From contig DUOG01000069.1 of NCBI GenBank assembly GCA_012838945.1, positions 1-44,083 of the forward strand: a DNA stretch of 44,083 nucleotides, read 5' to 3'. The notes under the pieces were generated by a model that saw only the letters and a list, made by a program, of their open reading frames with translations, searched no databases and had not been told where the DNA came from. The first letter of the stretch is position 1; every line of letters starts with the position of its first letter. Below, piece after piece: positions 42,474 to 44,083 of the stretch. A program made the translations under genes and the position numbers. The stretch comes from Acholeplasmataceae bacterium. GTDB taxonomy: Bacteria > Bacillota_I > Bacilli_A > ML615J-28 > CAG-313.

Positions 42474-42971
42474 ATGAACTATTACAATCCAGGCCATTAT
42501 AACTACTTTCACCAACGAGAAGCAACTAAATATGGTCCAACTGTTTTACCGCAAACCCCTCAGACAATGCAACCGCCAATGAAACCAATGGCAGCAGTAA
42601 AACCGTCGGTTAATTTACCTCCTCGATTTTTAACTCCTGAAGAAGGATGGAAGCGAGGAAATTTAGATGCTAATGCTTATGATCCTTATGAACCATATGT
42701 ACCTAAGACTCCTATTCCTAAGACTGAAAAGGAAGCGTTAATGCAAAGAATCCAAGCTTATAGTTTTGCTTGCTTGGAACTTGGTTTGTATTTAGATACG
42801 CATCCTAATGATCGGAATGTTCTTGAGATGTTCTTACGATATCGAGAAGAACTAAGAAAGATGACAATGGATTATCAAAACCGTTTTGAACCGATCAGTA
42901 TTCAGACAGCACCATTAAATAAATTACCATGGCAATGGGCAGCAACTGACTGGCCTTGGGAAAGGATGTAG
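42474..42971 (+). CDS. cotJB: CotJB-domain spore coat protein with apparent CotJA-like N-terminal region
   Basis: C-term LMQRIQAYSFACLELGLYLDTHPNDRNVLEMFLRYREELRKMTMDYQNRFEPI..WQWAATDWPWE (CotJB); N-term FLTPEEGWKRGNLDANAYDPYEPY (CotJA-like). ATG 42474 after AGGAGG. Confidence 0.82.
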   Translation: MNYYNPGHYNYFHQREATKYGPTVLPQTPQTMQPPMKPMAAVKPSVNLPPRFLTPEEGWKRGNLDANAYDPYEPYVPKTPIPKTEKEALMQRIQAYSFACLELGLYLDTHPNDRNVLEMFLRYREELRKMTMDYQNRFEPISIQTAPLNKLPWQWAATDWPWERM

Positions 42972-42977
42972 AGAGTT

Positions 42978-43538
42978 ATGTGGGTTTATGAGAAAAGATT
43001 ACAGTATCCGGTGAATGTTACGAAAAAAGACGTGCGAATGGCTAAATTTATTGTCACTCAATATGGAGGACCTGATGGCGAATTAGCAGCAGCGCTTCGT
43101 TATCTGAATCAAAGATATACGATGCCAGATGATTATGGGAAAGCACTTTTAACCGATATCGGTACGGAAGAATTAGCTCATGTGGAAATGATTAATACAA
43201 TGCTCGTCCAATTGACCAAAGATGCGACACTAGAAGAACTCGAAGCAGTGGGTCTTGGTGGGCATTACACCCAACATGGCTTCTCAATCTTCCCAACTGA
43301 TGCAAACGGCGTTCCATTTGCGACTAAGTATTTTCAAGATTTAGGTGACTGGCGTACTAACCTCTATGAGAATATGGCAGCTGAACAAAAAGCACGTTCT
43401 ACTTATGAACACTTGATTGATTTGGCGAAAGACCCTGCTGTTATTGACCCCCTCTTATGGTTAAGGCAACGGGAAATCATTCATTTCAATCGCTTTAGAG
43501 AACTCCTAGAACACTATGAACGTCTAGGAATAAAGTAA
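42978..43538 (+). CDS. cotJC: CotJC-type manganese catalase family spore coat protein
   Basis: MWVYEKRLQYPVNVTKKDVRMAKFIVTQYGGPDGELAAALRYLNQRYTMP, DIGTEELAHVEMI. Confidence 0.93.
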   Translation: MWVYEKRLQYPVNVTKKDVRMAKFIVTQYGGPDGELAAALRYLNQRYTMPDDYGKALLTDIGTEELAHVEMINTMLVQLTKDATLEELEAVGLGGHYTQHGFSIFPTDANGVPFATKYFQDLGDWRTNLYENMAAEQKARSTYEHLIDLAKDPAVIDPLLWLRQREIIHFNRFRELLEHYERLGIK

Positions 43539-43566
43539 AAGTTGGCAAATAGCCAACTTTTCTTTT
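43538..43566 (+). terminator. Intrinsic terminator of the cotJ operon
   Basis: AAAGTTGGC-AAATA-GCCAACTTT-TCTTTTT. Confidence 0.8.
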
Positions 43567-43581
43567 TCTAGGAGGATATAC

Positions 43582-43647
43582 ATGTATTATGATAATCATT
43601 TTTCTTTTATAATCTTATCAATAAAACTTTGCTTTATGATAAAATAA
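43582..43647 (+). CDS. Possible 21-aa small ORF
   Basis: MYYDNHFSFIILSIKLCFMIK preceded by AGGAGGATATAC-ATG (strong SD, good spacing). Confidence 0.35.
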   Translation: MYYDNHFSFIILSIKLCFMIK

Positions 43648-43690
43648 AGAAATAAGAGAAGGCTTAAAGCCTTCATTAGTGTACAAAACC

Positions 43691-43855
43691 TTAGAAATTC
43701 CTACTAGCAATTTCAATTGCTTTTTGGACTATTCTACCACAATCTTTAGAAGAAACAGCACCCCAACCTTGGTTTTGAACAATATCAAAAACACCTAATT
43801 CTTTGGCTATTTCCGTTCTTAAGTTTTCGGATATTAATCTTTTTCTTCTACTCAT
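43691..43855 (-). CDS. sspF: Alpha/beta-type small acid-soluble spore protein, SspF-like
   Basis: Reverse complement translates to MSRRKRLISENLRTEIAKELGVFDIVQNQGWGAVSSKDCGRIVQKAIEIASRNF*, matching the SspF pattern (E(I/L)AK(E/D)LGxxDxVxxxGWGxxxxxDxGxxVxxAIEIA). SD GGAGGTAAT upstream. Absent from the ORF track because it is shorter than 60 aa. Confidence 0.9.
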   Translation of the reverse strand: MSRRKRLISENLRTEIAKELGVFDIVQNQGWGAVSSKDCGRIVQKAIEIASRNF

Positions 43856-43949
43856 TGTGTATTACCTCCTTTTTGTACACTTATATTTTGTGTTTATATT
43901 TTTATTTTAAACTTGGAAGAAAATATTAAAATAAATTAAGAGGAGTATT

Positions 43950-44083
43950 ATGAAATATTTATTCGAATCAAAAAATTTATGTTTTAGAAGATTTGAAATA
44001 ACTGATGCACCGGTATTATTTGAACACCATTTGGAGCCTGAATTAAAAGAATGGATTCCTAATGAAGTGTATGAGGATCTTGA
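43950..44083 (+). CDS. GNAT family N-acetyltransferase, 3' truncated by window edge
   Basis: MKYLFESKNLCFRRFEITDAPVLFEHHLEPELKEWIPNEVYEDL resembles RimJ/RimL-type N-termini; AGAGGAG SD. Confidence 0.7.
   Translation, partial: MKYLFESKNLCFRRFEITDAPVLFEHHLEPELKEWIPNEVYEDL

Follow-up and report, generated by a model that had tools for sequence, protein, structure and literature searches.

Here, we describe a 54-codon gene near the end of a 44,083-nucleotide contig (DUOG01000069.1, the window) of an Acholeplasmataceae bacterium, whose product, judged from its sequence, we assign with high confidence to the clostridial SspF branch of the alpha/beta-type small acid-soluble spore proteins (SASPs), and which is very probably a minor spore DNA-coating protein. 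Under sigma-G control, the forespore produces alpha/beta SASPs, which occupy the minor groove of DNA, alter its structure and photochemistry, and guard against heat, UV and chemicals (PMC3533761; PMC8999374), and their conserved EIA site is cut by GPR at germination (PMC8452069; PMC2323104). Within the group, SspF is described as a minor member that can be set apart, and clostridia have the related Ssp4 (PMC3533761). The window protein is an ordinary addition to this large, already known family, and is notable mainly for its small, uncultured lineage, in which SASPs have been reported lost.

The frame from 43855 to 43691 is intact (54 codons, product MSRRKRLISENLRTEIAKELGVFDIVQNQGWGAVSSKDCGRIVQKAIEIASRNF before the stop codon; features in Table 1) and is confirmed as a real gene. 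The first-pass annotation had described this minus-strand ORF with a strong Shine-Dalgarno sequence, both of which are present, and had attributed its omission from the ORF track to a length cutoff, which is consistent with a 54-aa product falling under the default of 60 aa. Differences from the closest homologue (G019) number 9/6/18 at the three codon positions, a third-position excess that is expected of a coding gene. The terminator-like hairpin (-9.5 kcal/mol, z -2.8) lies 16 nt 3' of the stop codon; because the gene has its own hairpin and the convergent cotJC also has one, it is most likely monocistronic. The upstream CAAAATA fits weakly the sigma-G -10 consensus. Of 68 homologues, 20 have the motif CAWAMTA upstream, where mononucleotide shuffles of these AT-rich regions predict 4.4, an over-representation that is suggestive of a sigma-G promoter.

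Table 1. Coordinates of the SspF-like gene, its signals, its neighbours and the second SASP of the genome
Feature	Position	Strand	Basis or remark
SspF-like SASP ORF	43691..43855	minus	PF00269, homologues, codon-position bias
Peptide within SspF-like protein, ELGVFDIVQNQGWGAVSSK			
PF00269 core match, including TEIAKELG of the GPR cleavage site	43730..43828	minus	Pfam
Shine-Dalgarno GGAGG, in AAAAAGGAGGTAATACACA-ATG	43865..43869	minus	sequence; 9 nt spacer to ATG
Possible sigma-G-like -10 element CAAAATA	43884..43890	minus	weak; without clear -35
Intrinsic-terminator-like hairpin, SspF gene	43658..43674	minus	7 bp stem, GAAGGCTTTAAGCCTTC, U-rich tail after
cotJC-like (Mn_catalase family)	42978..43538	plus	Pfam; convergent neighbour, separate transcription unit
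Terminator-like hairpin of cotJC	43537-43561	plus	own hairpin of cotJC
cotJB-like, N-terminal extension	42474..42971	plus	neighbour of SspF locus
Canonical SASP of the genome	G000:C7:14229-14393		

A search with the alpha/beta SASP profile, which the first-pass annotation had suggested as a check, matches the window protein to PF00269 at 23.9 bits (E 4.1e-5), a margin of only 1.9 bits over the gathering cut-off of 22; its orthologues score between 21.4 and 28.1 bits. The annotated B. subtilis SspF retrieves it from a small search set (E 2.6e-13), with about 42-43% identity over 52 aa, and is in turn recovered when the search starts from the window protein. Profile-profile comparison with canonical SASPs aligns the EIA...G region (E 1.8e-4) at a modest probability of 49%. 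NCBIfam gave no match to the protein, and its profile made no sequence link to the SspC-DNA structure 2z3x, which the genome's canonical SASP did reach. Near its N-terminus the protein has the GPR-site motif E-(I/L/F)-A (TEIAKELG, residues 14-21); of 76 distinct homologues, 74 carry an N-terminal E-(I/L)-A. At the C-terminus it keeps the conserved GxxVxxAIEIA. From the SspF-branch signature GWG...G...AIE(I/K)A, GWG and AIE are common to the window protein and SspF. In two homologues (L034 and L068) the residue at which GPR would cut is Lys in place of Glu (KIAQELG), and these proteins are possibly poor GPR substrates.

The window protein is nearer to SspF (about 42-43%) than to the canonical SspA/B/C-type SASP of its own genome, with which it shares the EIA-x-E-(F/L)-G-V cleavage region but only 33% identity with indels; the canonical protein is without the GWG motif and scores 80.7 bits to PF00269, against about 22-24 for the window SspF. 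B. subtilis SspF is of the same length class and shares the core MS...K-x-E-(I/L)-A-K-(E/D)-L-G...GWG...GxxVxxAIEIA, but has Ala in place of Cys39 (RDAG vs KDCG). The protein had been called near-canonical SspF-type: the SspF type stands, whereas "near-canonical" does not fit 42% identity to B. subtilis SspF, the 1.9-bit margin and a Cys-type, clostridial sequence. SspF-like SASPs of Clostridia, Ruminiclostridium, Syntrophomonas and Caldicoprobacter are 57-75% identical to it and share the SSRDCG motif and E-I-A site, although clostridia typically hold several sspF copies (PMC3533761) and the window genome a single one. Clostridium perfringens Ssp4, an SspF-related alpha/beta SASP (PMC3533761) set beside the window protein by description, binds DNA and supports spore resistance, and differs in its length of 90 aa (PMC2323104).

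The Cys39 codon lies at 43739-43741. Cys-Gly occurs in 74 of 76 distinct homologues, a fraction that comes from a sample weighted towards relatives of the query and does not stand for SspF at large, and Ala-Gly in the SspF of Bacillus and Paenibacillus. The clostridial-type proteins thus carry a near-invariant cysteine (SSRDCG) in a DNA-coating family; a limited literature search found no role for it.

Sporulation genes were sought family by family in the same genome (1.69 Mb, 149 contigs, 97% complete). Two SASPs are encoded, namely the window SspF and a canonical protein of 76 aa (the 80.7-bit match above). The endospore programme of the host comprises Spo0A, SpoIIGA, SigE and SigG (the last three consecutive), SigK, a SigF-like factor with SpoIIAA and SpoIIAB, SpoVAC, SpoVAD, SpoVAE, and GPR, so that the core regulators whose absence the first-pass annotation had named as grounds for doubt (spo0A, sigF/E/G/K) were all found. 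GPR has an open frame of 355 aa, with one stop flagged within the matched stretch that is probably the end of the gene. In one cluster lie an ORF resembling D-Ala-D-Ala carboxypeptidases (DacF, judging by its position and by eye), SpoIIAA (STAS), SpoIIAB (HATPase), a sigma factor, and SpoVAC, SpoVAD and SpoVAE; this divergent sigma factor reaches only 81 bits with the SigF model and is taken as SigF from its place behind SpoIIAA/SpoIIAB. SigE, SigG and SigK score below the strict NCBIfam cut-offs, and were identified by best match together with gene neighbourhood.

The SspF gene was found in 7 of 80 genomes (its own and 6 of 79 relatives), the six others being 53-72% identical to the window copy, with 18 invariant positions among the orthologues. 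All seven encode a canonical SASP, six encode GPR, and all seven encode Spo0A, against 37/80 overall (hypergeometric p 0.003, a value that ignores kinship). When all 43 genomes of the order were searched by profile, the SspF carriers within the order, that of the window included, were the same six; the gene is missing in the window's family from the other 14 genomes, where it is therefore dispensable, and present in 5 of 28 in the sister family. In public genomes at least 420 SspF-encoding stretches were located, the best 80 of which are mainly from Clostridia. Horizontal transfer from Clostridia gained no support from a tree of the 54-aa proteins, in which the window protein had no firm placement and its nearest neighbour by path was that of G019, from the same order. 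A mobile origin was rejected: none of 50,697 phage records matched SspF, and plasmid matches were confined to 3 records. One of these, a B. subtilis record labelled as a plasmid (NZ_AP028965.1), carries rsmA-veg-sspF-ispE-purR and looks like chromosomal DNA. In one related genome (G074, L034:1223-1372), the SspF-like gene adjoins a gene for a YjcZ-type small hydrophobic peptide (PF09680).

The first-pass annotation had placed the gene next to a cotJ operon on the opposite strand. The adjacency holds, as the genes are convergent and cotJC stops at 43538, but a conserved link does not: tblastn with CotJB and CotJC against 86 SspF loci (1.5-3 kb flanks, some shortened by contig ends) gave 0 matches, a functional cotJ-SspF link was rejected, and the adjacency is incidental, without functional weight. 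The same annotation ranked the SASP among the most specific sporulation markers of the window; it is the more specific of the two beside cotJC, which is widespread outside sporulators (PMC3533761). The CotJB-like protein has an N-terminal extension of ~87 residues, with similar extensions in relatives from the order; neither Pfam nor BLASTP detected similarity to CotJA there, and a CotJA-CotJB fusion was rejected. Upstream of the cotJB-like gene, no ORF for a separate CotJA was seen. B. subtilis sspF lies between veg and ispE, whereas a veg/sspF/ispE/purR neighbourhood was not found in the window or at any homologue locus. Just past the cotJC hairpin, 43582-43647 (plus strand) may encode a hydrophobic peptide of 21 residues (MYYDNHFSFIILSIKLCFMIK), for which AGGAGG would be the ribosome-binding site, and on the other side of SspF the first part of an ORF at 43950-44083 (plus strand), truncated by the contig end, is N-acetyltransferase-like by eye only.

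From what was directly observed (the gene with its homology and cleavage motif, the terminator-like hairpin, and the regulators and GPR in the genome), we infer that this organism sporulates, and propose that the SspF gene would be transcribed by sigma-G in the forespore as a single-gene unit. Together with the one canonical SASP of the genome, the protein would bind spore DNA and, once bound, shield it from UV, heat and chemicals, until GPR cuts it at T-E-I-A-K-E during germination.

Three other readings were weighed against this DNA-coating role. That the frame is a spurious, intergenic ORF might be suggested by its shortness, under the usual ORF cut-offs, but its homologues are conserved across families and classes and the codon-position bias is that of a gene; this reading is already refuted, and we give it next to no weight. 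It is improbable that the gene is a relic in a lineage that no longer forms spores. In order ML615J-28, a 2024 survey reported spoIID, spoIIE, spoIVFB and other genes to be absent or reduced (PMC10868615), and SpoMAG assigns a sporulation probability of 0% to ML615J-28 and RF39 genomes (PMC12536801), findings that bear on this genome only given its placement in that order; the SspF frame is nevertheless intact, has a strong Shine-Dalgarno sequence and a hairpin, and is constrained at its first and second codon positions, and the same genome also encodes Spo0A, sigma factors, spoVA and GPR.

A mainly regulatory role, as a sporulation checkpoint or transcriptional modulator in place of bulk DNA protection, appears very unlikely. 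In its favour, one canonical SASP is already present in the genome, and two C. difficile reports (PMC8452069, PMC11392383) describe SspA and SspB as required for spore maturation besides UV resistance. That effect, however, concerns the main SASPs, single deletions of the minor C. difficile SASPs (CDR20291_1130, CDR20291_3080) left sporulation unaffected (PMC8452069), and no regulatory feature was seen in the window SspF.

In their division into two families and in their Spo0A frequencies, the window genome and its relatives are like order ML615J-28, with its families CAG-313 and CAG-698 (PMC10868615), to which the order probably corresponds. Alpha/beta SASPs are encoded by 25 of 43 genomes of the order, among them 13 of the 15 from the family of the window. 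Within the sister family, Spo0A is encoded in 11 genomes and a SASP in those 11 and one more, and across the order the presence of SASPs closely tracks Spo0A and GPR. Two genomes of one genus (G003 and G008) have a split, weaker GPR match (about 240-250 bits), and their SASP match begins only at profile position 13-14, which may point to a divergent GPR/SASP pair; another (G063) has Spo0A and a weak GPR-like match, with no SASP detected. These profile results disagree with a 2024 study based on KEGG orthologues, in which all SASPs were inferred to be lost in the ancestry of Mycoplasmatales-related Bacilli (PMC10868615); most simply, short and divergent genes escaped KEGG annotation. On balance, we lean towards the view that these genome-reduced, walled relatives of Mycoplasmatales kept SASPs (canonical ones widely, SspF patchily) and GPR, and that the reported loss is an annotation artefact. 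With SASPs in 25/43 genomes tracking Spo0A and GPR, it is probable that these uncultured bacteria sporulate and that their spores contain DNA-coating proteins. Such retention bears on the persistence and spread of the lineage, and on claims that it has lost SASPs or does not sporulate.
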